A DNA stretch of 64,000 nucleotides from Candidatus Jettenia sp. (GTDB lineage Bacteria > Planctomycetota > Brocadiia > Brocadiales > Brocadiaceae). How positions within the stretch are numbered: the stretch's first letter is position 1; every line of letters starts with the position of its first letter. The notes beneath the pieces are model-generated. The model did not search any database. It had not been told where the DNA came from and saw only the letters and a list, made by a program, of their open reading frames with translations. The DNA lies in NCBI GenBank assembly GCA_021650895.1, contig CP091278.1:1021659-1085658 (forward strand). The letters are read 5' to 3'. This document shows positions 3,892 to 63,806 of this stretch, one piece after another. Position numbers and translations under genes: made by a program.

Positions 3892-5097
3892 TTACCCTTG
3901 AGACCTAATAAGGTGGGTTGTTTCCAACAAACCCGATATTTCCCGCTTTAGTTTATCGAAGATTCCCTGTAGTTGCGTTTCATCCGGAATGTACTGGATA
4001 TTTATGGATTCTATCATATCAAAGCCGCATCCCTTTAATACTTCTTCCACATGGCGAACCCCTTGTCCTCCCCATCCATAAGAACCGAAGGCTAACCCAA
4101 TTCTGTTTTTGGGAGACAGCCCTTTCAGATAGGTTAAAAAACCTGCAACAGTAGGAAGCATATTACTATTTAACGTAGGAGAACCAACACAGATAAATTT
4201 CGCTGTTAATATATCGTTCATTATGTCAGAAATATGGTTATACTGAAGATTAAGTATCTTTGCAGGAATCCTATATGACTCAAAGGCTTTTTGAATTGTA
4301 GAAGCAATCTTTTCCGTAGATTTCCACATAGTATCATAAATAATCAGCGCCTTCATTTCTGCCTGATTGGCAGCCCATTTTCCATACTCTTCCAAGATCA
4401 TCTTTACATAAGAACGCCAGATGATCCCGTGGGCAGGAGCAATCATGTCAATAGCAAGCGGGGCTATTAAATCTATTGCCTTTTTCACCATCATGGAGTA
4501 AGGTAAAACAATATTAGCATAATACTTCCTTGCCTCTTCCACAACAATTCCAAAGGGATATTCATCATCGAACCTTTCAGAAGAAGCAATGTGCTGTCCA
4601 AATGCATCATTGGAAAAAAGGACGTTATCTTCTTCCAGATAACTCACCATATTGTCCGGCCAGTGAACCATTGGAGTATGAAAGAACTTTATATTTCTCT
4701 TACCAAGGTTAACAGACTCATCTGATTTAATTACCTTAAAATTCCAGTCATTTCTTTTATAATGAGCAATTAACCCCTTGTGTCCGTTTGGAGAGGTTAT
4801 AATCGTTGCGTTCCTGGCAGTTTCCATAAGGAGTGGCAGACTCCCGGAATGGTCCATTTCTACGTGGCTTGCAATAATATAATGAATTTGTGAAGGGTCT
4901 ATGAGAGAAGATAAGCGACTCATCATTTTCTCGTAGAGATGAGGTCTGACCGTATCAATCAGGGTAATTTTCTCATCAAGTATCAGATAGGCATTATACG
5001 TTGATCCCCGTTGGGTTAAATAGCCGTGAAAATTGCGAAGATCCCAGTCAATTTCTCCAACCCAATAAATTCCTTCTTTTAATTTTACTGGATTCAT
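3892..5097 (-). CDS. fprA: Flavodiiron protein (A-type flavoprotein, FprA)
   Basis: The ATG at 5097 is chosen because GGAG lies 8 bases upstream; a GTG at 5109 overlaps that site. The 401-residue product has an N-terminal metallo-beta-lactamase-like diiron domain (about 1-245) with ligands His78, Glu80, Asp82, His83 (HVEMDHSG), His145, Asp164 and His223. A C-terminal flavodoxin domain starts at about 250 (LIIYDTMWKSTEKIA, FMN phosphate loop). All canonical iron ligands are present. Flavodiiron proteins reduce O2 to water and/or NO to N2O in the cytoplasm, using electrons from rubredoxin or NADH-dependent partners. In an anaerobe that handles NO this would be a protective enzyme. The upstream NuoE/F pair could supply electrons, which is inference. 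Confidence 0.92.
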   Translation of the reverse strand: MNPVKLKEGIYWVGEIDWDLRNFHGYLTQRGSTYNAYLILDEKITLIDTVRPHLYEKMMSRLSSLIDPSQIHYIIASHVEMDHSGSLPLLMETARNATIITSPNGHKGLIAHYKRNDWNFKVIKSDESVNLGKRNIKFFHTPMVHWPDNMVSYLEEDNVLFSNDAFGQHIASSERFDDEYPFGIVVEEARKYYANIVLPYSMMVKKAIDLIAPLAIDMIAPAHGIIWRSYVKMILEEYGKWAANQAEMKALIIYDTMWKSTEKIASTIQKAFESYRIPAKILNLQYNHISDIMNDILTAKFICVGSPTLNSNMLPTVAGFLTYLKGLSPKNRIGLAFGSYGWGGQGVRHVEEVLKGCGFDMIESINIQYIPDETQLQGIFDKLKREISGLLETTHLIRSQG

Positions 5098-5186
5098 TCG
5101 TTTCTCCACAAAAAGTTAAATATCTGAGAAAATTATTCACGAATAGTTAAACTTAAACACTCGATGTTTTTGTTTATGCTTCTTTA

Positions 5187-5828
5187 TTATAGAGATTGGA
5201 TTGGCTGTCCCACTATTTCTTTGATATGATTGAGAAAAACCTCGTTAGGGGTGTAATTTTCCCGAAGTGGACTTATGATAAAAACAGGTACATGACAACC
5301 GATCTGATGCAACCTCTCTTGCGTTTTCATGATATCGTCAGTGGTATCATCTTTATATCTATTAATCACTGCAAGATCAATCTTGGGAATAATCTGTTTT
5401 GTAGAACGTTTTATTTTCGGTTCCCTGGCTGTGGTAACAAGAATACTAAGATTAGCGTTATGGGTATGTAAAAAGCTATTACCTTCTACAAGGACGAAAC
5501 TGCCTTTATCAAAATAGGACAATGCCTCTTCGATGCCTGCTTGAAGATATTCAGAATGGGTTTGAAGCCATACAACCTTTCGGGCGCCAGCGCTTTTGAA
5601 GAGGGCAGTGTCTTTACCCGGTTGATTAATCTGAAGCGGATCAACGGTAATCTTATAAGGATATGCCATAGTCTCACATACATCACAATCGGAGTGTCTG
5701 GTGCAGTTGCCTTCATGTTTTGTAGTAATTTTTAAGGCAGATAAGTCAAAAAAATGCCTGAGTAAAAATTGTGCAATTGTCGTCTTTCCTACACCACTTG
5801 CTGTGCCAGTAATAGATATAATCTTCAT
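5187..5828 (-). CDS. mobB: MobB-like P-loop GTPase (molybdopterin-guanine dinucleotide synthesis)
   Basis: A 213-residue protein opening MKIISITGTASGVGKTT, a Walker A loop at residues 8-16. A Cys/His cluster (CTRHSDCDVC) follows at about 45, and FVLVEGNSFL near 130 resembles the Walker B region. Members of this family bind GTP and assist attachment of GMP to molybdopterin, or act in other metallocentre insertions. TTG at 5837 is an in-frame alternative start, but the ATG fits the family start. Anammox bacteria use molybdoenzymes, but none is encoded here. The degree of match is moderate: the fold is clear, but assignment to MobB rather than another SIMIBI-class GTPase is less so. Confidence 0.68.
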   Translation of the reverse strand: MKIISITGTASGVGKTTIAQFLLRHFFDLSALKITTKHEGNCTRHSDCDVCETMAYPYKITVDPLQINQPGKDTALFKSAGARKVVWLQTHSEYLQAGIEEALSYFDKGSFVLVEGNSFLHTHNANLSILVTTAREPKIKRSTKQIIPKIDLAVINRYKDDTTDDIMKTQERLHQIGCHVPVFIISPLRENYTPNEVFLNHIKEIVGQPIQSL

Positions 5829-5936
5829 ACTATACAAGTATACTATCTTCTGCCGATTCCTACAACTCCTTTTGCCTTTTTCTCCTTATTAATGCTAGAA
5901 ATTCCCGTCCAATTGTATTGTATTGAATCTTTAAAC

Positions 5937-7619
5937 TTACGGTTGTTGGACCGAACTCTGCTGAGGTGAAGTTTGAAAGCTTTTTTTATTAATCAATTCC
6001 TCGTACTCATTGATATAGTAACGAATTGTAGACAGTACAGGATTGGCTGCCGTTTGACCCAGACCACATAACGATGCTGTTTTGGTAACCTCGGCCAATT
6101 CCCTGAGCAAGTCAATATCCTCCTTTTTGCCCTCTCCTTTTGTGATACGGGTAAGAATATCGAGCATCCTTTTGGTTCCAATCCTACAAGGAACACACTT
6201 TCCACAAGACTCATCCTGGCAAAACTCCATAAAATACCGTGCAATTTCAACCATAGAGGCTGAGTCATCCATGACAATAAGGCCACCAGAGCCCATAATA
6301 GCCCCTACCTCTTTGACTGTTTCATAATCAATAGAAAGATCAAGATGCTGAGCGGGCACACACCCACCTGAGGGACCCCCCATTTGAGCTGCTTTGAATT
6401 TTTTCCTTCCGGGAATACCACCACCGATATCAAAAACAATTTCACGCAGTGTCGTTCCCATCGGAACTTCCACAAGCCCTGTATTCTTTACATTACCTGC
6501 AAGAGCAAATATCTTTGTGCCTTTACTCGTTTCTGTACCAATAGCTTTATAGAATTCAGATCCTTTGAGAATAATAACGGGTACGTTTGCAAAGGTTTCC
6601 ACATTATTGATATTCGTAGGTTTTCCCCAAAGACCATTGGTGGCTGGAAATGGAGGACGTGGACGCGGCATACCTCGTTTTCCTTCAATAGAGGCAATGA
6701 GGGCTGTCTCTTCACCACATACAAATGCACCAGCGCCCATTTTGATTTCTAAATCGAAACTAAACTGAAACCCAAGGATATTTTCTCCTAAAAGTCCAAG
6801 GGTCTTTGCTTGTTCTATGGCAATCTTTAAATGCTCCACTGCAATGGGGTACTCTGCACGCACATAGATAATTCCTTTTCTTGCCCCAATTGCATAAGCG
6901 CCAATAAGCATCCCCTCAATCACCGTGTGGGGGTCACCTTCAAGAACTGCCCGGTCCATGAAAGCACCTGGATCGCCTTCGTCTCCATTACAAATAATGT
7001 ATTTTATGTCTCCTGCTGCCTTTTTAACAAATTCCCATTTATTGCCTGTAGGAAACCCGGCACCGCCTCTGCCGCGGAGGCCTGAGTTTTTCATTTCAAG
7101 AATTACATCATCCGGTGTCATATCCGAAAGTACCTTTGAAAGGGCTGCATATCCGTCTCTTACGATATATTCATGAATATTTTTTGGATCGATCTCACCA
7201 CAATTTCTTAATACAATCTTTTCTTGTTTGCTATAAAATGGAATATCACGAACATAGGGAATACGTTTGCCAGCATCTGTATAACAGAGCCGCTCAATAA
7301 CTTCGCCTTTCAAGATAGTTCGTGAAACAATTTCTGTAACGTCCGCCTCTGTCACTCTGCCATAAAAAATACCCATGGGTTCAATGGTTAAGACAGGCGC
7401 CCGGGCACATAAACCCTGACAACCGGTATCAACAATTTCTACTTTATCTTCTAAAGATAGCTTTTTAATCTCAGCCTTAAAGGCCTTAAAAACTTCTTCT
7501 GCGCCAAGCGCCCTGCAACCTGTCGTACAGATCAATACTCGTATCTTATCAGAGCGATATTTCGATTCGAGGGATTTCCTGAACTTTACCAGTTCATCAG
7601 GACTTTCTAATTTTTTCAA
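5937..7619 (-). CDS. nuoF: NuoF/HndC-type NADH-binding flavoprotein subunit with N-terminal [2Fe-2S] domain
   Basis: 560 residues. An N-terminal thioredoxin-like ferredoxin domain carries four cysteines (Cys31, Cys35, Cys67, Cys71). It is followed by the NuoF core with the FMN/NADH loop GRGGAGFPTG (183-192), an SLBB region and the C-terminal [4Fe-4S] ligands Cys472, Cys475, Cys478 and Cys518 (SCGKCVPCR...SLCGLG). The extra N-terminal domain is typical of diaphorase subunits of NAD(P)-dependent or bifurcating hydrogenases and formate dehydrogenases rather than respiratory NuoF. The start is TTG, supported by AGGAGAG just upstream. nuoE lies 15 bases upstream. No NuoG, hydrogenase or dehydrogenase catalytic subunit is adjacent, so the physiological partner is unknown. 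Confidence 0.9.
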   Translation of the reverse strand: MKKLESPDELVKFRKSLESKYRSDKIRVLICTTGCRALGAEEVFKAFKAEIKKLSLEDKVEIVDTGCQGLCARAPVLTIEPMGIFYGRVTEADVTEIVSRTILKGEVIERLCYTDAGKRIPYVRDIPFYSKQEKIVLRNCGEIDPKNIHEYIVRDGYAALSKVLSDMTPDDVILEMKNSGLRGRGGAGFPTGNKWEFVKKAAGDIKYIICNGDEGDPGAFMDRAVLEGDPHTVIEGMLIGAYAIGARKGIIYVRAEYPIAVEHLKIAIEQAKTLGLLGENILGFQFSFDLEIKMGAGAFVCGEETALIASIEGKRGMPRPRPPFPATNGLWGKPTNINNVETFANVPVIILKGSEFYKAIGTETSKGTKIFALAGNVKNTGLVEVPMGTTLREIVFDIGGGIPGRKKFKAAQMGGPSGGCVPAQHLDLSIDYETVKEVGAIMGSGGLIVMDDSASMVEIARYFMEFCQDESCGKCVPCRIGTKRMLDILTRITKGEGKKEDIDLLRELAEVTKTASLCGLGQTAANPVLSTIRYYINEYEELINKKSFQTSPQQSSVQQP

Positions 7620-7634
7620 TTTGTCTCTCCTTTT

Positions 7635-8129
7635 TTAATAACCCTTGAGAATAGCCTCTGTTTTTTCTACGGTTAATTTCCCATAATATCTACCATCAAT
7701 CATCATAACTGGCGCCAGAAAACATGTACCTAGACATGCTACAGGTGTATAGGTAAATTTATAATCTGGAGTTGTCTCGCCTTCTTGTATCTGGAGAACA
7801 TCTGAAATCTTTTTCTTTATCTCAGGTGCACCCTTGATGTGACATGCCGTACCTGTGCAGACCTTGATGGTATATTTACCACGTGGTTCCAAATAGAATT
7901 GTGAGTAAAAGGTAACAACTCCATAAATTTTACTTAAAGGAATACGTGTTTTGGCAGATATTTCTATCAGGACATCCTGAGGCAAATACCCATAAGCATC
8001 TTGTATAAGCTGTAAGATAGGAATAAGATCCGCATGAGTTACCGAACTATAGTTTGAGAGTATAGACCTGCACTGGGCCAAATCAACCGAAGGGCTACTT
8101 TCTTTGTTTAGAGTAACGTTTTTCTGCAT
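7635..8129 (-). CDS. nuoE: NuoE-type [2Fe-2S] subunit (24 kDa family)
   Basis: 164 residues with a helical N-terminal domain (LIPILQLIQDAYGYLP) and a thioredoxin-like [2Fe-2S] domain whose ligands are Cys91, Cys96 (CTGTAC), Cys132 and Cys136 (ACLGTC). It forms the NADH-oxidising diaphorase with the NuoF-type protein encoded 15 bases downstream. The length and the ligand spacing are normal. With purQ 151 bases upstream on the same strand, the pair could belong to a long purine/redox transcript or start its own. Confidence 0.92.
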   Translation of the reverse strand: MQKNVTLNKESSPSVDLAQCRSILSNYSSVTHADLIPILQLIQDAYGYLPQDVLIEISAKTRIPLSKIYGVVTFYSQFYLEPRGKYTIKVCTGTACHIKGAPEIKKKISDVLQIQEGETTPDYKFTYTPVACLGTCFLAPVMMIDGRYYGKLTVEKTEAILKGY

Positions 8130-8280
8130 AATATCTTGTCTCCAAATCGCTTATTTAATAAATCAAAATTAGAGAGTTCAATTCAACGCAAATGCACAGA
8201 AAGCTTGGGGTCTTGTGTCTCTTGTTAAGACTCTAAACACGAGACAGTAAGGTCCTGCCTTGCGCCTTTGCGGTAAACTA

Positions 8281-9093
8281 TTAAAAATTAGTTTTAACAT
8301 AACGAACTGCATTTTTAAAAATGAAAAAACCGTCTCCTTGCTCTTTGAGTCCGTTACGTGTCCAATGTGGGTGCTGTGTCGGCTCTACATACCTTTCGGG
8401 ATGCGGCATCATACCGAGAATTTGACCTGTCGAATCACAAATTCCCGCGATATTTTGAATGGAACCGTTGGGATTCCATGGATAACCAGCTTCTTCTCCG
8501 CGTTCGTTTACATATTTAAAGATAATCTGATGATTCGCTGTGATCTTATTTAAAACGTTCTCATCCCGTACAATAAATTTCCCTTCTCCATGCGCTACTG
8601 GCAGATATATTGTCGGGATGTACTCATCATGGATAAAGATAGATTTGTGAGAGCAGGTTTTTAAATAAACCCAACGATCCTCGAATTTGTTCGAGTCATT
8701 AAAGGCCAATGTAGCCTCTTGCTGATGTTCACCCTGTGTACTATTGTTACGGGACAGGTCAAAAGCTGGCAGTAAATTCGCCTTTGTTAATACTTGAAAT
8801 CCATTACATATCCCAAGGATTAATTTTTTCTCATGAATAAAGGTTGTAATCTCCTCTCCCAGATTATATTTGATTTGATTTGCTAATATTTTACCAGCAG
8901 AAACATCATCTCCGTAAGTAAATCCACCAGGAAGAGCTAATATCTGATAATTCTTCAGTAGTTTCCGGTTTGTCAGGAGTATATTGATATGAATTACATC
9001 CACCTTTGCCCCTGCTTTTTCAAAGGCATAGTGGGTTTCATAATCACAATTTGTTCCGGCTGTTCTGAGAATTAATACCTTTGGTATTGTCAT
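8281..9093 (-). CDS. purQ: Phosphoribosylformylglycinamidine synthase, glutaminase subunit
   Basis: A 270-residue class I glutamine amidotransferase. The nucleophile Cys96 lies in GICNGFQ, and His231/Glu233 lie in MPHPERY; N-terminal LRTAGTNCD and PGGFTYGDD are PurQ hallmarks. It supplies ammonia for conversion of FGAR to FGAM, the fourth step of purine synthesis, in complex with PurL, whose gene is 150 bases upstream on the same strand. It is a little longer than B. subtilis PurQ (227 residues), as in many PurQ proteins of planctomycetes and archaeal type. Confidence 0.93.
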   Translation of the reverse strand: MTIPKVLILRTAGTNCDYETHYAFEKAGAKVDVIHINILLTNRKLLKNYQILALPGGFTYGDDVSAGKILANQIKYNLGEEITTFIHEKKLILGICNGFQVLTKANLLPAFDLSRNNSTQGEHQQEATLAFNDSNKFEDRWVYLKTCSHKSIFIHDEYIPTIYLPVAHGEGKFIVRDENVLNKITANHQIIFKYVNERGEEAGYPWNPNGSIQNIAGICDSTGQILGMMPHPERYVEPTQHPHWTRNGLKEQGDGFFIFKNAVRYVKTNF

Positions 9094-9243
9094 AGTATCT
9101 ATAGTAACCGATTATATACTTAATTTAAATCTCAAAGTCAGAAAGGACACAAAGAAATATAGCTATAATTCTTCACATACTTTTCCTCCAAATCATCGTA
9201 CCTTCTGTGCCTTCATAACCCTTCATTATTAAAATAGAGCGCT

Positions 9244-12120
9244 CTACCATCTCAATGGCGATTGCCATGCTTCTTTTAAATCGTAAATATTTTCATGAAC
9301 AATTAGCCTGTTGTTGAGTCCGTTAATTTTGAGCAACGGCTCTCCGATAACTTTTCCTATCATTCCGTAAGGAATATCTTTTATAAGGGCTTCGAATTGC
9401 TTGTGATGTTCAGGCCGTACCTCAACAACAAAACGGGTATTTGACTCAGAAAAAAGAAGAGTATCGTTTCTGTGGATTTGACCTTCTGTCGCTATGGCAG
9501 AGAGATTAAGCAACATACCATATCCCCCTGCAAATGCCATCTCTGCCGCGGTAACGGCAAGGCCTCCCTCAGAGCAATCATGACAAGATTTGATAATTCT
9601 CTGATTCGTTGCCTCGGATAGAGCATTCATGATTCTCGTGCCCAGGATTACGTCCACCTTTGGGACATTATTTCCCGTATATCCGTGGATATGGTAATAA
9701 TGCGAGCCGCCTAATTCGGCACGAGTAAGCCCAATAAGATAGATCAGATTACCAGGCTCTTTGATATCCATTGACACAGCATTCCGCACATCTTCCATTA
9801 CTGAAATAGCAGAAATAAGGAGCGTTGGAGGAATTACAATCGTCTCTTTATCAGTAACAAATTCGTTATTCAGGCTATCTTTTCCAGAAATAAAGGGAGT
9901 CCCATATGCAAGAGCAATATCATAGCAAGCCTGCGCAGCCATTACGAGACTGCCAAGACGGTCCGGCTTATTGGTATTACCCCAGCAGAAGTTATCTAAG
10001 AGTGCAACCTGTTTTAAACTTCCGCCAACGGCTATTATCTGCCGTAGCGCCTCATCAATTGCCGAGGCAGCCATGTGATACGGATCTATATCACCATATC
10101 GCGGGTTCATTCCATTCGATACAATAATACCTTTCCTGCTCCCCAGCACAGGGATAATAATACATGCATCGCCCGGCCCATCATTCTGGATACCCTGAAG
10201 AGGCTTTAATACACTTCCTCCCTGCACTTCATGATCATATTGGCGTATAATCCATTCTTTACTGCAAACATTCCAGGCAGAGAGTATCTTCTTTACATCA
10301 AATCCGTAATCTTCCTTTTCGGACAAAACAGGCTCTTCAAAGACACGTCTATGCCATACAGCTTTGCGCTCTAATCTCGGTATACCTTTGTGGAGGAAAT
10401 TCATCTCTATTTCTCCAACTCCCTGAGAATTGTACATCAGGCGCAATATCCTATCACGGGTAAATCTTCCGATAACCGTTGCTTCTACATTTTCTGTCTT
10501 AAATAAGTGAAGAATCTCAGACTCTTTTTCTGGCGGAACAGCAAGCACCATCCGCTCTTGTGACTCAGAGATCCAGATCTCTGAGTAAGAGAGGCCCTCA
10601 TATTTAAGAGGCACCTTTTCCAGATAAACAATTGCTCCTAAATTTTCACCCATTTCACCGATAGCAGAGGATAAACCTCCGGCTCCGCAATCGGTAATGC
10701 AGGTGTACAACCCCTTATCACGCGCCTGTAAGAGGGCATCCAATAACGCCTTTTCTGTTATTGCATTTCCAATTTGTACAGCACCTCCGGAGATCTGTTC
10801 TGACCGATCATGTAATTCTACGGAGGAAAATGTTGCGCCATGGATTCCATCACGGCCGGTTCTCCCCCCTACAACAACAATGAGATCATCCGGGTGAGCC
10901 TCTTTTTGACATTTATTCTTTGGTATAATACCTACAGTTCCACAAAAGACGAGCGGGTTGCCAATATATCGTTCATCAAAAAAGACAGCGCCATTTGAGG
11001 TAGGAATACCCATACGATTACCATAATCCCTCACACCAGCAACAACGCCTTTCATGATCCTTTTTGGATGCAAAACACCCTTCGGAATTTTATCCAGGGG
11101 GGTATCGGGCAGACCAAAACAGAATATATCAGTATTAAGAATCGGCTTGCCTCCTAATCCTGTACCCATAATATCCCTGATTACACCCCCGACACCCGTA
11201 TTAGCTCCTCCGTATGGTTCAATTGCGGAGGGATGGTTGTGGGTCTCTACCTTAAAACAAATATTATAGCAATCATCAAATTGTATAATACCGGCATTAT
11301 CTTTAAATACAGAAACACACCATGGTTTATTAAGCTCTTCCGTAACTCTCATAATCGTGTTGCGTAACAGGTTATCAATGCGGTTCCCGTTGAAATCAAT
11401 AATGCCTTTTAAGGTCTTATGGATACAATGCTCAGACCATGTCTGTGCAATTGTTTCAAGTTCAACATCTGTAGGTTCTCGTTTCAGTGACCGGTAATAC
11501 TCCTGAATCGCTTGCATTTCCTGAAGATTGAGAGAGAGCTGACCAAGCCTGCTTATCTCTTCCAGCCGGGCATTACCAGCGTCTAGCAAGGGTACAAAAT
11601 TCTTCTTAAAGGTATAATGGATATTGCTGTGGTTGTAATCTGGCATCTCCGGATAAACAAAAACATCTTCTATCTTGGTATTTGCAAGAACCCGGGTCGC
11701 AATAGTATGAACGGTCTCCCGTGATAGGTTTCCGTTTATGATATATTTTTGTGCTGTTTTAATACCGTCTACATGTATTCCTATATCACGGAGTGCTTTC
11801 AAAATCGATAGTTCTGCAGGGTCCATAACACCTGGTTTACGGCTAATTTCAATAATGTGGAAAGGCGAACGATCACTCACCCCTCTATGAGTTCCTGTAT
11901 CCCCGTTATATTGATAATGCTGAGTAACCGTATCCGCGAGAAGCTTCTTGGCAATCGTACCCAAATCATGTTTGCTTACGTTTCCAAAAATGATATAAAC
12001 CTGGTGAACCCTTACGCTTGCCACGCCGGGAAAGCCAAACGTTTCAATTTCTGATCGTATGGTATTTCCTAAAGGATCAGGAAATTCGCTCTTAAAAAAT
12101 ACCTCTATTCTTGAGTACAT
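9244..12120 (-). CDS. purL: Phosphoribosylformylglycinamidine synthase, PurL with two N-terminal PurS-like modules
   Basis: 958 residues. Residues 1-75 and 86-160 each read as a PurS-type ferredoxin-like module (for example KSEFPDPLGNTI...GVASVRV, then RKPGVMDPAELSI...). PurL proper begins at about 175, with the characteristic TWSEHC at 227-232, FKVETHNHPSAIEPYGGA, the glycine-rich GGVIRDIMG and the C-terminal DCSEGGLAVTAAEMA. It catalyses the ATP-dependent FGAR to FGAM step using ammonia from PurQ. Small PurL enzymes normally need a separate PurS to dock PurQ; here PurS-like domains appear built in, doubled. tyrA ends 12 bases upstream, indicating co-transcription. Confidence 0.93.
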   Translation of the reverse strand: MYSRIEVFFKSEFPDPLGNTIRSEIETFGFPGVASVRVHQVYIIFGNVSKHDLGTIAKKLLADTVTQHYQYNGDTGTHRGVSDRSPFHIIEISRKPGVMDPAELSILKALRDIGIHVDGIKTAQKYIINGNLSRETVHTIATRVLANTKIEDVFVYPEMPDYNHSNIHYTFKKNFVPLLDAGNARLEEISRLGQLSLNLQEMQAIQEYYRSLKREPTDVELETIAQTWSEHCIHKTLKGIIDFNGNRIDNLLRNTIMRVTEELNKPWCVSVFKDNAGIIQFDDCYNICFKVETHNHPSAIEPYGGANTGVGGVIRDIMGTGLGGKPILNTDIFCFGLPDTPLDKIPKGVLHPKRIMKGVVAGVRDYGNRMGIPTSNGAVFFDERYIGNPLVFCGTVGIIPKNKCQKEAHPDDLIVVVGGRTGRDGIHGATFSSVELHDRSEQISGGAVQIGNAITEKALLDALLQARDKGLYTCITDCGAGGLSSAIGEMGENLGAIVYLEKVPLKYEGLSYSEIWISESQERMVLAVPPEKESEILHLFKTENVEATVIGRFTRDRILRLMYNSQGVGEIEMNFLHKGIPRLERKAVWHRRVFEEPVLSEKEDYGFDVKKILSAWNVCSKEWIIRQYDHEVQGGSVLKPLQGIQNDGPGDACIIIPVLGSRKGIIVSNGMNPRYGDIDPYHMAASAIDEALRQIIAVGGSLKQVALLDNFCWGNTNKPDRLGSLVMAAQACYDIALAYGTPFISGKDSLNNEFVTDKETIVIPPTLLISAISVMEDVRNAVSMDIKEPGNLIYLIGLTRAELGGSHYYHIHGYTGNNVPKVDVILGTRIMNALSEATNQRIIKSCHDCSEGGLAVTAAEMAFAGGYGMLLNLSAIATEGQIHRNDTLLFSESNTRFVVEVRPEHHKQFEALIKDIPYGMIGKVIGEPLLKINGLNNRLIVHENIYDLKEAWQSPLRW

Positions 12121-12132
12121 ACCTTAATAAGC

Positions 12133-13011
12133 CTATTCTTTAATTTCGTTTTTTTGGTTTATCGAATTATTATGAAATACACTATCACGTGATACCTTTG
12201 CCATTCTTAGTCTGTTCAGTAACGTAGTATTGTCTTTATGTAAAAGATCATTTTTAAATCCGATAAGTTCAACTATAAGCTGATCGATTGATTGTATGAT
12301 ATTCTCGCGATTTTGATCAAAAATATCTACCCACAACTCCGGATCACCAGATGCGACTCTTGTAGTATCCCTTAATCCGCTGGCACCATAACCAAGATAT
12401 TCCTTTTTGATTGCATTTATAAGGCATGACGCAACCAGATGAGGGAGGTGACTTACATCCGCCAATATTTTATCGTGTTGTTCCGGGGTTAAATATATTA
12501 CTTTAGCACCTAAGAGTTTCCATAAACAGGAGATTGTGTCTAATGCGCTTGTATGGTTGAGTTGCGATGGTGTTACAACGCATGTACAACCTTCAAAAAG
12601 ATCAGGTGAGGCAAACTCAACACCCTTTTTCTCTGACCCGGCAATAGGATGCGCACCGATAAAGGCAACATCGCTTCTCATGTTTTGAGTTATTTGTTCA
12701 ACGATGCAATTCTTTGTACTGCCTACATCAGTGAGAATAGCATTACTCTTCATTAATTGTATAACTTCTTTTGCAGTTTTAATAATTTGATTTACTGATG
12801 TAGCTAGTATTACAATATCAGCATCTTTCACAGCCTTATCAATACATGAAACTCCAATATCAATAGCATTCATTTTAAGGGCTTTTTCTAAAGAAGAAGC
12901 CCTCTGGCTTACCCCAATAATGGTTCTTGCCAAATTTCTTTTTTTTAACGCTAAACCAATGGAACCACCAATAAGCCCTGGGCCGATTATACAGATGGTC
13001 TCGAAGTACAT
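12133..13011 (-). CDS. tyrA: Prephenate (or arogenate) dehydrogenase
   Basis: 292 residues, the usual length of a monofunctional TyrA. The NAD(P)-binding loop GPGLIGGS is at residues 9-16, DVGSTK at about 115, and the catalytic histidine block GAHPIAGSEKKGVEFA near 140-155 is intact. It oxidatively decarboxylates prephenate to 4-hydroxyphenylpyruvate, or arogenate to tyrosine; the sequence alone does not settle the substrate. There is no ACT or chorismate mutase domain. It heads the leftward tyrA-purL-purQ cluster; the promoter should lie between 13012 and 13227, shared divergently with accA. Confidence 0.9.
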   Translation of the reverse strand: MYFETICIIGPGLIGGSIGLALKKRNLARTIIGVSQRASSLEKALKMNAIDIGVSCIDKAVKDADIVILATSVNQIIKTAKEVIQLMKSNAILTDVGSTKNCIVEQITQNMRSDVAFIGAHPIAGSEKKGVEFASPDLFEGCTCVVTPSQLNHTSALDTISCLWKLLGAKVIYLTPEQHDKILADVSHLPHLVASCLINAIKKEYLGYGASGLRDTTRVASGDPELWVDIFDQNRENIIQSIDQLIVELIGFKNDLLHKDNTTLLNRLRMAKVSRDSVFHNNSINQKNEIKE

Positions 13012-13305
13012 AGATTATTTCTGAATTATGTTTACCCTACATTATAGAATATAAAATTTCATGTATAAAGAAACCAAATGTTACATTTCAGGCTTCTTTT
13101 TGTCAATGTTTTTAAGTCATTTGAATTAACAATTTTTAGAGAATAAACCCTTCACAATTATACGTCTTAATTTCCTTGCAATAAGACAAAAATTAATTAA
13201 AATAAATCCGCTATATTAAGTTCCATAATGAATACTAATCACTATATTATAAGATATTCTCTTAATATTAAGAAGCAATATAACAATATAAAGAGAGGAG
13301 ATATT

Positions 13306-14268
13306 TTGTCTGAAAAATCTGTAACAGAATTAGAGAATTTGATACTGGAGATTGAGCATCGTATAGAAGGTTTAGAAACCGCTTCCTCACAAGATAACGT
13401 TAGTAGGATAACAGAGATAGAATATTTGAAGGAGAGAAAAGAGAGGCTTCAAATAAAGCTATATTCCCAATTAACTCCATACGATGTAGTCAAGATAGCG
13501 AGGCATCCCCTGCGTCCGCTTTCAGCGGATTACATAAATCTTATCGCTGAGGACTTTGTTGAACTTCATGGAGACAGGTGTTTCGGAGATGATAAAGCAA
13601 TTATTTGTGGTTTAGGAAAAATCGGACAGGAGAAACTTTTAATAATCGGACAGCAAAAGGGAAAGAGCACAAAGGAACGCATCGCTTGTAATTTCGGTAT
13701 GCCAAACCCCGAAGGATACAGAAAGGCACTGCAAAAAATGATGCTTGCAGAAAAGTTCCATTTACCCATTGTTACACTCATCGATACACCAGGCGCCAAT
13801 CCAGACATCGGGGCGGAAGAACGAGGCCAGGCACACGCCATTGCAGAAAACATCTATGAGATGAGCAGACTGAAGACTCCAATTATCAATATCGTCATAG
13901 GAGAGGGTGGAAGCGGTGGTGCCTTAGGTATTGGCATCGGTGACAAATTTTCCATCCTTGAATACGCCTATTATTCTGTAATTTCGCCTGAGGGTTGTGC
14001 TGCAATATTGTGGAAAAATAGCGAAAATGCATCCGAAGCAGCAAAATCTTTACAGCTTACAGCAAAAGATTTATTAAAATTAGGTATTGTGGATGAAATT
14101 ATTCCGGAACCCCTTGGAGCAGCACATAAGGACCCTAAAACAATGGCACATATACTAAAATCACATATAATTAAATATTTAGAAGAGTTAAAGGGTATTC
14201 CAATTATCAAACTTGTAGAAAACCGATACAATCGGTACAGAATGATAGGTAAATATTTGGAAGGCTAA
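13306..14268 (+). CDS. accA: Acetyl-CoA carboxylase carboxyltransferase subunit alpha
   Basis: The frame is open from 13228, but GAGGAG at 13295-13300 places the start at TTG 13306, giving 320 residues, the length of E. coli AccA. It contains the coiled-coil N-terminus, PLRPLSADYI, ELHGDRCFGDD, the CoA/biotin loop ERIACNFGMPNPEGYRKAL, DTPGANPDIGAEERGQ and GEGGSGGALGIG. It transfers the carboxyl group from biotin to acetyl-CoA with AccD to form malonyl-CoA, the first step of fatty acid (including ladderane) synthesis. accD, accB and accC are not in the window. It is divergent from tyrA and convergent with korB. Confidence 0.95.
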   Translation: MSEKSVTELENLILEIEHRIEGLETASSQDNVSRITEIEYLKERKERLQIKLYSQLTPYDVVKIARHPLRPLSADYINLIAEDFVELHGDRCFGDDKAIICGLGKIGQEKLLIIGQQKGKSTKERIACNFGMPNPEGYRKALQKMMLAEKFHLPIVTLIDTPGANPDIGAEERGQAHAIAENIYEMSRLKTPIINIVIGEGGSGGALGIGIGDKFSILEYAYYSVISPEGCAAILWKNSENASEAAKSLQLTAKDLLKLGIVDEIIPEPLGAAHKDPKTMAHILKSHIIKYLEELKGIPIIKLVENRYNRYRMIGKYLEG

Positions 14269-14315
14269 ACTTATTAGCCTTTACCGGAATCATAATCTCT
14301 CAGGTGAACTCAATA

Positions 14316-15062
14316 TCAAGAATTGCTTTTTATAATTCCGATCTCATCCTGAGCTAGTTCTTCTGTGTAGTCATTGATTTTATAAAGTTCCTTGTAATGC
14401 ATAAGCATTTCGTTGGAATTCTTATAACCCAGACGACGACCGTAATTAACAATGCACATAGTCCTTACTTCCACAAAGGAAAAGCCATTAAATTTTAACG
14501 CCTCTATAATGCATTTTTTCATATGATTTAGATGGTACGCTGAAGTCCGGGCAAAGTAGCAGTTATGATGTTTAAATAAAAACTGCACATCGGTTGGATA
14601 GTCTGGATTACCATTAGGCGTGGTCAGGGTCTTCGTATTGTGAGGTGTGATAGGAGAAGCCTGGCCACCTGTCATAGCATAAATTTCATTGGCATAACAT
14701 ACCACAGTAATATTTGTTTTTCTCCGTATTGCATGGAGTAAATGATTAGCTCCAATACCAAGCAAATCACCATCTCCACTCACCACAACAACATGAAGGG
14801 CATCATTTGCATATTTGATACCTTCAGCTACCGGTATCGCTCTGCCATGAGCTGTATGGACTGAATCAAGATTAAAGAAACCAGCACTTCTGCCTGCACA
14901 TCCAATTCCGGAAATAACTACCGTGCCATCCTTCGGCAGGTCAAGTTCATCAAAAGCCTGACATATCGTTTTCAGGACAATGCCATTCCCGCATCCTGGA
15001 CACCAAGGTGTGGGTAACAAGTCGAGTTTCAAATAACGTTTAAAACCATTCTCTTTATCCAT
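14316..15062 (-). CDS. korB: 2-oxoacid:ferredoxin oxidoreductase subunit beta (probably 2-oxoglutarate)
   Basis: A 248-residue thiamine-diphosphate subunit with the iron-sulfur ligand motif WCPGCGNG (Cys21, Cys24), SGIGCAGR (Cys55) and the TPP/Mg motif GDGDLLGIGANH (97-108). With KorA and KorD it interconverts a 2-oxoacid plus CoA with the acyl-CoA, CO2 and reduced ferredoxin. Position next to succinyl-CoA synthetase argues for 2-oxoglutarate rather than pyruvate. The small, separate beta subunit fits the Kor class. It is the last gene of the leftward carbon operon and converges with accA. Confidence 0.88.
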   Translation of the reverse strand: MDKENGFKRYLKLDLLPTPWCPGCGNGIVLKTICQAFDELDLPKDGTVVISGIGCAGRSAGFFNLDSVHTAHGRAIPVAEGIKYANDALHVVVVSGDGDLLGIGANHLLHAIRRKTNITVVCYANEIYAMTGGQASPITPHNTKTLTTPNGNPDYPTDVQFLFKHHNCYFARTSAYHLNHMKKCIIEALKFNGFSFVEVRTMCIVNYGRRLGYKNSNEMLMHYKELYKINDYTEELAQDEIGIIKSNS

Positions 15063-60839: not shown

Positions 60840-61367
60840 TTACTTAGCTAAACTGTCATGGCCTCTTTTCAGCCACATTTCGCAGAGAGGAATAAAGATA
60901 TAGGCTCCAAAGCTTAGCGTAAGGAGAATATTGGAAATGATAAAGGTAATCACAAAGTGATGGCATACATACCTGATAAGCCATGGGGCTGCCAGATTTA
61001 ACAGAATGCCGAGAAAGGAAACACTATATATGGTAGTCTTTAACCCTTCACGGGTATGCGTCATTGCCATGATACGGGAAAGAATAAATACTACGATAGG
61101 TATTGAAAAGATATGGGTATGAGTTACTTCTAAAAGTTCCCGATAGGATTTTGCAAAGAATAAACCTTCCTCCATCTTAGTCTGGTTTTCCTCCATAGAT
61201 GCAGGATCAAACTCTTCCTCTTCATCACCACAATAATAGCGTATTGTCTTCTCCGGGGAAAAACCCGTTCTCTCATAATAATTCAAGAAGCCAATTCCAA
61301 CGGCTATAGCAATAATAAACAGGAAAAACGTGAAAAAGACCTTATTACTGACCGGAAGCGACCACAT
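60840..61367 (-). CDS. Four-helix membrane protein with histidine motif, partner of the ApbE fusion
   Basis: About 175 residues (ATG 61367; ATG 61379 is 4 residues longer). Membrane helices about 8-28, 85-105, 115-135 and 145-168. A short outside loop is acidic (CGDEEEEFDP), and the second helix begins ELLEVTHTHIFSIPIVVFIL; further histidines lie in YVCHHFVIT. Paired membrane histidines could bind a b-type haem. I recall similar small proteins next to ApbE or FMN-binding genes in deltaproteobacteria but cannot name the family. It overlaps the 3' end of the ApbE fusion gene by 23 bases, so the two are translationally coupled. Confidence 0.68.
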   Translation of the reverse strand: MWSLPVSNKVFFTFFLFIIAIAVGIGFLNYYERTGFSPEKTIRYYCGDEEEEFDPASMEENQTKMEEGLFFAKSYRELLEVTHTHIFSIPIVVFILSRIMAMTHTREGLKTTIYSVSFLGILLNLAAPWLIRYVCHHFVITFIISNILLTLSFGAYIFIPLCEMWLKRGHDSLAK

Positions 61368-63165
61368 GCCACCTAACATTCCCTTCTCCTTCGCTCTTAA
61401 TTTTCCTGAATTTCTCTTTAAAACCCATCGTCATATCTACCATAATTTTCCCATCCTTCCCCTCATACATAATTAAGGCACCGGCGCCGGGAATTTTACT
61501 AATCAATTTTAAACCTTTTTCAGGCCCTAAAACAAATACACTGGTGGATAACGCATCAACCTCTGTGCCCTTAGGAGCAACAATTGTCGTTGCCAGCACA
61601 CCGCTTACCGGTTTTCCCGTCCTCGGATCTATGATATGTGAATATCGTTTTCCCTGTATCTCAAAGAACCGTTCATAATCTCCGGATGTTGCAGTGGCCT
61701 CATTTTTGAGTTCCAGATAGCCGAGAATTTCATTACTATCCCGTGGATGCTGCACACCGACCTTCCATACATTTTTACCGGGCGGGGCACCAAGTACAGA
61801 AATATTTCCGCCAAGATTAACACAGGCATTATCAATATCAAATTTTTTCATAATTTCCATTGCCTTGTCTACAGCATATCCCTTCCCGATACCGCCCAGA
61901 TCAATTTGAGTCTGATCATTTTTATAGGATATGGTGCATAGATCTTGTGATCCCGCCCTTTTATCATCTATTACAATATTCTTATAAGATACGGCAGGTA
62001 AAATATCTTCTATCTCTTTATCCGATGGGATGTGCCCCTTTTCATCAAAAAATCCCCAAAGAGCAACAATCGGAGAAACAGTAATGTCAAAAGCACCTTC
62101 ACTCAGTTCACTATAGTATTGCGATATCTTAATCACATCGAGAAGTTCTTTATCGCAGGGTACAGATGATTTTGCTGCCTTTTTATTGAGCAGGGAAAGC
62201 TCACTATCATCTTTGTAATTGCTCATAATGCGATCCATACGTTCCATCTCATCTAGAGCAGCATCAATTGCCTTGCCGGCAATTTTTTCATCGTTGGAAT
62301 AAACAGATATCTCTGCAAAAGTACCCATAATCATACGGGTCTGTTTCAGGAGTTTCCTCTCGGAAGATACATCTTTTCCATCATCATGAGCTAGTGTACT
62401 TTTTTCAAGACCTTGTCTCTTCTTCTCATTGGCATTTCTTTTCTTCTTTGCATGTTGTGATCTGCTTGATTCTTCAGAGGATCTCTCTTTTTCTGATGTT
62501 ACCACACCAATATTTTTAGGCCTTATATGACTCACATCTCTTTTACCATTGAGATAATATTCATGAATGACAACGAGTACCTTTCTTACACCTGCACACA
62601 TACACTGCACAGACATGGTAGCGCCAGTAATATTGATGATATCCTTATTTAACCGGATCGGATTCTTGATTGATTTTCCAATAAATTGATAAAGGAACCG
62701 TTTTCTGGCAACATCTCCACCACGGCTCTCACGGTAAACAAGAACGGCTACATTATTAATCTTCCCATTTGGTTTTACACCGACAATAAAGGTAAAAGGA
62801 TGAAATTTCCCAACCTCTTCGGTAATAATTGCATATCCCTGGATAACACCTTTACTCTTACCAATATAAACTTTAAATCCACCTTCATAAAGCCTTCTTG
62901 CAAGTTGTTTTTCAAGACCGCGTTTTTCTTCAGGTGTCATGATAAATTCATCAGTTACAATCTCATCACACTCAGAAAAAACAAGGGCAAGCGCCTGTTC
63001 TTCTGTAAGATACGTCTGAAGTTGAAAACTCTCTTCAGACTCTGTGCTTGCATGTACTTTCTGAACATCAAAAAACAGAGAGACGATTGGTAATAATAAC
63101 AATAGAAATATAAAAACAGAAGGTTTTATTCTCTTATCTATGAGTTTCATTGATTGATCTAACAT
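61345..63165 (-). CDS. apbE: FMN_bind domain fused to ApbE (FAD:protein FMN transferase)
   Basis: 606 residues. N-terminal membrane segment/signal (about 15-38). An FMN_bind domain about 90-205 carries the flavinylation motif TGATMS (180-185), where Thr183 would receive FMN by phosphoester link, as in NqrC/RnfG. A charged linker (about 212-270) follows, then a full ApbE domain about 275-600 with MGTFAEIS, DLGGIGKGYAVDKA (422-435), VNLGGNI, SHIIDPRTGKPVSG and the metal-binding DALSTSVF. ApbE normally modifies a separate protein; here enzyme and acceptor are in one chain. It should act outside the cytoplasm in electron transfer with the coupled membrane protein downstream. Confidence 0.93.
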   Translation of the reverse strand: MLDQSMKLIDKRIKPSVFIFLLLLLPIVSLFFDVQKVHASTESEESFQLQTYLTEEQALALVFSECDEIVTDEFIMTPEEKRGLEKQLARRLYEGGFKVYIGKSKGVIQGYAIITEEVGKFHPFTFIVGVKPNGKINNVAVLVYRESRGGDVARKRFLYQFIGKSIKNPIRLNKDIINITGATMSVQCMCAGVRKVLVVIHEYYLNGKRDVSHIRPKNIGVVTSEKERSSEESSRSQHAKKKRNANEKKRQGLEKSTLAHDDGKDVSSERKLLKQTRMIMGTFAEISVYSNDEKIAGKAIDAALDEMERMDRIMSNYKDDSELSLLNKKAAKSSVPCDKELLDVIKISQYYSELSEGAFDITVSPIVALWGFFDEKGHIPSDKEIEDILPAVSYKNIVIDDKRAGSQDLCTISYKNDQTQIDLGGIGKGYAVDKAMEIMKKFDIDNACVNLGGNISVLGAPPGKNVWKVGVQHPRDSNEILGYLELKNEATATSGDYERFFEIQGKRYSHIIDPRTGKPVSGVLATTIVAPKGTEVDALSTSVFVLGPEKGLKLISKIPGAGALIMYEGKDGKIMVDMTMGFKEKFRKIKSEGEGNVRWHVVASGQ

Positions 63166-63320: not shown

Positions 63321-63806
63321 TTACTGGTTAGCAAGAATATTTTCCAGTTTCTTCAAGAATTCTTGTTCAATGACACCATCAGATGGAATGCGGCTCCATC
63401 GATATGCACCACTGCCACCCGGTGGTTTCTCTTCAATCTGAGTATTTACGGAAACATATGTCTTATTTTGTTCGCCACTTACTTTTATAGTCAGGCGATA
63501 GCGTTCTTGCCATTGTCCTTCCAGGAGTACCCCGGTAGTTCTTCTTCTTGACCATCCCTTCACCCATTGAGTTTTTATAATACCCTTTTCTTTGTCTACG
63601 GTTTTAACACGAATACCCTCAATCACCTGCATTGCCGCATCCCATACGGTATTTACATCCTTATCAAAATAGTGTGAGATTGCGGACATACTTCTCAACC
63701 CACCCCTCGAAGCACACCCTGTAGGAACAGTAGTCCAGAGAATCATACATAGCAATACGAAAACAAGAGATGTAGCAGATGACAATCTTTTTCGGTTTGT
63801 ATTCAT
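63321..63806 (-). CDS. Hypothetical lipoprotein, BamC-like fold possible
   Basis: 161 residues. Signal peptide ending in a lipobox (VPTGC, Cys31). The mature part (about 35-158) has an alternating helix-strand pattern (ISHYFDKDVNTVWDAAMQVI; DKEKGIIKTQW; YRLTIKVSGEQNKTYVSVN) that resembles BamC/NlpB-type or similar helix-grip lipoproteins. It is exported and lipid-anchored. It lies 155 bases upstream of the ApbE fusion gene on the same strand; whether the genes are linked functionally is not evident. Confidence 0.72.
   Translation of the reverse strand: MNTNRKRLSSATSLVFVLLCMILWTTVPTGCASRGGLRSMSAISHYFDKDVNTVWDAAMQVIEGIRVKTVDKEKGIIKTQWVKGWSRRRTTGVLLEGQWQERYRLTIKVSGEQNKTYVSVNTQIEEKPPGGSGAYRWSRIPSDGVIEQEFLKKLENILANQ

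Follow-up and report, generated by a model that had tools for sequence, protein, structure and literature searches.

Two overlapping genes on the reverse strand of the Candidatus Jettenia sp. stretch analysed here (64,000 nucleotides, the window) encode an FMN_bind domain fused to an ApbE flavin transferase and, directly downstream, a small histidine-containing membrane protein, which we call TM4. Does this pair form a membrane electron conduit to covalently bound FMN, and is it a self-contained, previously undescribed redox module of anammox bacteria, as a sequence-only reading of the window had proposed? Flavinylation systems described so far are classified according to the membrane protein that partners them, and to some apbE clusters no partner has yet been assigned. 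Five partner classes, NapH, MsrQ, PepSY, DsbD and NQR/RNF-like proteins, were described by Meheust et al. (2021; PMC8238504), to which Huang et al. (2024; PMC10979944) added DUF4405 and FezC.

Both open reading frames were found where the sequence-only reading had placed them. The fusion gene (positions 61345–63165, reverse strand, as are all features below) encodes a predicted exported protein of 606 residues, with homologous fusions in Brocadiales and other Planctomycetota. Read by eye, its N-terminus (residues 1–39; 63049–63165) resembles a signal peptide, with a hydrophobic core and the ending KVHAS. The co-occurrence of both domains in one polypeptide was borne out by Pfam, with PF04205 (FMN_bind) at residues 123–197 (62575–62799; 30.8 bits at a cut-off of 22) and PF02424 (ApbE) at residues 280–563 (61477–62328; 302 bits), both scores being far above chance. 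A charged linker (residues 215–267; 62365–62523) was modelled as disordered (pLDDT < 50). The ApbE domain is also supported by solved ApbE structures and retains the conserved motifs HIIDPRTG, DALST and GGIGKGYAVD, and a profile of the FMN_bind half matched the RnfG structures 7zc6 and 9eri. The flavinylation motif TGATMS was confirmed at residues 180–185 (62611–62628); its first four residues, TGAT (180–183), conform to the [S/T]GA[S/T] consensus. Alignments of 17 fusions and 33 FMN_bind halves showed T183, the predicted FMN attachment site, and S185 to be unchanged throughout. The ApbE domain would flavinylate the FMN_bind domain of the same polypeptide at T183. Upstream of the fusion lies a lipoprotein gene (63321–63806) with a weak NlpB-like match, a homologue of which precedes the fusion (or ApbE) in four families of the order Brocadiales (f1, f2, f4 and f5).

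TM4 (60840–61379) is a four-helix membrane protein of 179 residues, supported by a structural model (pLDDT 91), by family alignments and by a ribosome-binding site. The closest named relative, with 95% identity in TM4, is Candidatus Jettenia ecosi. An AAGGAG site (61386–61391), six nucleotides before the ATG, and an MxxGMW start common to Brocadia place the start codon at 61379. Consequently, the two genes overlap by 35 bases; the 23 bases originally given fit the second methionine alone. The model contains four long helices (residues 10–38, 79–105, 111–137 and 142–170) with an acidic loop of 40 residues after helix 1. The loop charges suggest that this loop is extracytosolic and that both termini are inside, which would therefore place H87 and H89 in the outer half of helix 2. 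Of the membrane histidines originally singled out, the HTH (residues 87–89; 61113–61121) held up, since H87 and H89 are invariant, as HxH, in 52/52 short-form TM4 sequences. The HH (140–141), part of a CHH (139–141; 60957–60965), is not conserved in the TM4 alignment and was discarded as a ligand. Position 102 (61074–61076) is arginine in the Jettenia protein and in 16/16 Brocadiales sequences, and histidine in 33/36 sequences from other Planctomycetota. The conserved histidines of TM4 are thus H87 and H89, joined by H102 outside Brocadiales, and all of them are on helix 2. No single-chain arrangement of four central histidines was present in TM4, unlike in DUF4405-like cytochromes.

TM4 had no Pfam or NCBIfam match over cut-off. 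Among 44 TM4 members, none matched the Pfam families of NapH, MsrQ, PepSY, DsbD, NQR/RNF-like proteins or DUF4405 at an E-value of 0.1, and weak matches to cytochrome b561 occurred in three (best E-value 0.005). A profile search of the PDB revealed no relative, and the TM4 model gave no Foldseek hit in the PDB at E < 1. The best VIA-align/Foldseek fold comparison (Z 8.7) was with a generic helix bundle, an outcome that does not count against a shared fold.

A TM4 profile was run on 392 sampled Planctomycetota genomes and matched 103 of them, in short and long forms. Outside Brocadiales, all 40 genomes with a short TM4 also encode the same FMN_bind subfamily, five have the FMN_bind protein alone and 311 have neither, a count that spans 17 families and applies an FMN_bind cut-off of E < ~1e-28. 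At a cut-off of 1e-15, more genomes appeared, mainly from f37 and f61, with related, often unfused FMN_bind proteins and no short TM4. Fisher's test of the co-occurrence gave P = 8e-48, which ignores shared ancestry, so that the family count of 17 is the safer figure. FMN_bind/ApbE genes accompany the short TM4 in 33 of 36 loci fetched from outside Brocadiales (in 27 of them within one frame), and the three unlinked cases are short or contig-edge stretches. In two genomes (G118 and G078), FMN_bind adjoins TM4 at a locus that lacks ApbE. The long TM4 form, which carries a CxxCH insert, was linked to FMN_bind/ApbE in 0/4 loci. Longer forms recur in Planctomycetota; a paralogue of about 245 residues that retains the HxH and has its CxxCH insert between the first two helices was seen in three loci (L055, 7929–8660; L056, 9471–10205; L060, 9537–10268).

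We conclude that the fusion and TM4 form a real functional unit, which recurs across the phylum. Widespread occurrence of TM4 without these neighbours had been named beforehand as evidence against such a unit; the pairing holds outside Brocadiales, but TM4 and the fusion are not linked in f4, a Scalindua-like family. An anammox-specific module was rejected on the 40 non-Brocadiales genomes that have both short TM4 and FMN_bind, and the proposed anammox redox module is likewise not supported, the pair being distributed across Planctomycetota and, in several lineages, accompanied by iron-uptake genes.

Within Brocadiales, hydrazine synthase alpha was found in f1, f2, f4 and f5, and we therefore regard these genomes as anammox; it had no match in the sole f3 genome, which is 77% complete. 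The fusion and TM4 genes are adjacent in nearly all f1 genomes and also in f2 and f3. The f4 genomes retain the lipoprotein–fusion pair, with TM4 located elsewhere, next to murJ or next to FeoB, a VIT1-like gene and Fe_dep_repr_C+FeoA regulators. In three f4 loci (L051, L054 and L059), TM4 lies in an iron cluster, by FeoA-domain DtxR-type regulators and a VIT1-like protein; FeoB is also encoded in L051 and L054. In some anammox assemblies, the fusion frame or the TM4 frame is split or interrupted by a stop (L044, 4213–6035; the TM4 loci of G020, G031 and G046), reflecting either assembly error or real decay. A second, divergent FMN_bind–ApbE fusion lineage was also observed (L082 of Brocadia pituitae, 5070–14434; L083, 893–8871; L059, 585–6904). 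It neighbours genes for a ResA-like thioredoxin, for a family 1 encapsulin carrying two CxxCH motifs, for a multicopper/multihaem protein and for a P1B-type ATPase. In L059 this lineage has an apparently degenerate ApbE domain; in a relative of Jettenia (G002, L083), the gene is broken into two frames.

A search of the Jettenia genome itself (3.82 Mb, one contig) revealed a single ApbE, the domain of the fusion, and three FMN_bind proteins, the other two being RnfG and NqrC-type subunits in Rnf and Nqr clusters that carry flavinylation-type motifs. No Rnf or Nqr subunits are encoded at the fusion–TM4 locus; these genes lie elsewhere in the genome. In the Nqr-type cluster (L047, 7147–13205), the NqrD-like and NqrE-like subunits form one frame of 479 residues. 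Rnf and Nqr both need ApbE. Since the fusion contains the only one in the genome, it presumably modifies Rnf and Nqr in trans as well, and the description of the module as self-contained is not supported. G012, a complete anammox genome of the same family, encodes a stand-alone ApbE that is 67% identical to the ApbE domain of the fusion, together with one FMN_bind protein (Rnf-like); the FMN_bind half and TM4 are missing. Loss of the FMN_bind half in G012 was accompanied by loss of TM4, with the transferase activity retained, a single event that separates the two roles. Both the sole ApbE of Jettenia, with its Rnf and Nqr clusters, and the retention of ApbE in G012 would also fit a fusion whose main task is housekeeping, the flavinylation of Rnf and Nqr. 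In that case, FMN_bind would be a leftover or a test substrate within the same molecule, and TM4 would do no more than anchor the enzyme or position it at the membrane. We consider this unlikely: the FMN_bind motif is invariant throughout the phylum, TM4 tracks FMN_bind and not ApbE (G118 and G078, and the joint loss in G012), and a mere anchor would have no need of an invariant HxH.

A role of TM4 in electron transfer is suggested by a protein that takes its place elsewhere. Plasmids of Bradyrhizobium and Methylocystis (L139 and L141) carry the gene order hypothetical/FMN_bind/ApbE/four-helix protein. They resemble the planctomycete loci in gene order and in the FMN_bind subfamily, which is that of the FMN_bind half of the fusion. 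They differ in that FMN_bind and ApbE are unfused and in that the membrane protein, with the invariant residues H51, H69, H116 and H130 in a two-haem-like pattern, is unrelated in sequence to TM4. Homology between the two was unsupported (hhalign 1.2%), and tblastn of two TM4 proteins against plasmids gave no match. The four-His protein also stands by FMN_bind or the fusion in the planctomycetes G373, G244 and G389; beside the fusions of G121 and G186, neither this protein nor TM4 was present. Because two unrelated four-helix proteins fill the same slot, the position of TM4 argues for the same job, membrane electron transfer. On the Methylocystis plasmid (L141, 3111–8386), the FMN_bind/ApbE/four-helix genes are followed by a multicopper oxidase gene and a ferritin-like gene.

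The acceptor of these electrons may be indicated by the neighbouring genes. FeoB was encoded in 12 of the 36 short-TM4 loci, Fur or DtxR in five and any of these in 14. The tested FeoB proteins were confirmed by Pfam. VIT1 genes also recur near TM4, as do porin-like or other predicted outer-membrane proteins (weak matches). The 12 FeoB-linked loci come from four families outside Brocadiales, nine of them from one family, and f4 is an additional case inside the order. A FeoB protein query, used since a FeoB_Cyto probe missed divergent FeoB, showed about one FeoB per genome. Chance linkage in 4 of 17 families is therefore improbable (a rough estimate of ~6e-7, taking 0.4% for each family). No iron gene was detected at the Jettenia locus. 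TM4 could also be a metal-binding or iron-transport accessory, not a redox protein, with its HxH binding iron together with FeoB and the flavin being fed by another carrier. This would suit the Scalindua-like genomes, in which TM4 occurs with FeoB, VIT1 and DtxR but away from the fusion, and the restriction of the conserved histidines to one helix. However, FMN_bind is the most constant neighbour of TM4, FeoB is found in a minority of loci, and the slot is filled elsewhere by the protein with the two-haem-like histidine pattern. Thus, a purely accessory function seems improbable.

With a little better than even confidence, we propose that the fusion and TM4 constitute a flavin-based extracytosolic electron-transfer module, in which TM4 passes quinol electrons to FMN, most likely for the reduction of ferric iron. 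The membrane conduit to FMN advanced in the sequence-only reading is upheld as the best reading and strengthened, though not as an anammox module. We infer the covalent FMN, the haem, the dimer, the direction of flow, the acceptor and, for Jettenia, the role in iron metabolism as follows. The ApbE domain would flavinylate T183. TM4 would act as the membrane partner, probably as a dimer, with a redox cofactor at the HxH of helix 2, most likely haem b (or another metal), and would reduce the FMN on T183 with electrons drawn from the quinone pool. Outside the cytosol, the FMN may then donate electrons to ferric iron (or to a different acceptor), and FeoB could take up the ferrous iron so formed. 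Without H102, the Brocadiales proteins would keep the outer site only, which, speculatively, fits quinol better than a cytosolic donor. Against the transfer of electrons through TM4 stands the location of HxH on a single helix, so that a bis-histidine haem would require dimerisation or a further ligand; moreover, the third histidine is absent from the Brocadiales proteins. Other points against the proposal are that TM4 has no PDB relative, no clear fold match and no detectable kinship with the four-His protein, that it is separate from the fusion in f4, that the Jettenia locus has no adjoining iron gene and that one family supplies nine of the 12 FeoB-linked loci. Reverse flow, in which an extracytosolic donor would reduce the FMN and TM4 would pass the electrons back to the quinone pool, is quite unlikely: the sequence gives no direction and reversal is possible in principle (Meheust et al., PMC8238504), but the recurring iron-uptake neighbours suit outward flow better.

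The module comes closest to the flavinylation-based extracytosolic electron-transfer systems (PMC8238504), with which it shares an FMN_bind protein with [S/T]GA[S/T] (here predicted to be exported), a nearby ApbE, an adjoining membrane protein and a repeated link to iron genes. It differs in that TM4 fits none of the five classes and in that FMN_bind and ApbE are usually one polypeptide. DUF4405 and FezC (PMC10979944) are likewise small membrane proteins with conserved histidines; DUF4405 is encoded beside apbE, and FezC, for which haem sites in a homodimer were proposed, is tied to iron. TM4, in contrast, has no DUF4405 match, four helices and conserved histidines on helix 2 only. The FMN_bind half is a distant relative of RnfG, but, unlike RnfG and NqrC, it is fused to ApbE and has no adjacent Rnf or Nqr subunits. 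A gene combining ApbE with DUF2271 was noted by Meheust et al. (PMC8238504), and in kinetoplastid fumarate reductase ApbE is fused to its target (reviewed in PMC12052999). The latter case is similar in uniting transferase and target in one polypeptide, the target there being fumarate reductase and here an FMN_bind domain with a membrane partner. A literature search limited to the main texts of freely accessible papers returned no paper describing TM4, and prior notice is possible. We propose that TM4 represents a new class of membrane partner among the flavinylation systems already known. A bolder version is conceivable but doubtful: TM4 would be an unrecognised class of dimeric four-helix cytochromes that, with self-flavinylating fusions, acts across the planctomycete phylum as a ferric reductase supplying FeoB; in anammox bacteria, TM4 would have lost its second haem site (H102 to R), and the module would share its transferase with Rnf and Nqr.

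As a partner class, TM4 would supply the membrane component of flavinylation systems for a large part of the Planctomycetota and link it to iron uptake, and the protein is small enough for expression tests. The ApbE domain of the fusion is probably the single flavin transferase for Rnf and Nqr in anammox bacteria. Anammox metabolism is heavy in haem and iron, and the TM4 module offers a testable route of iron reduction.
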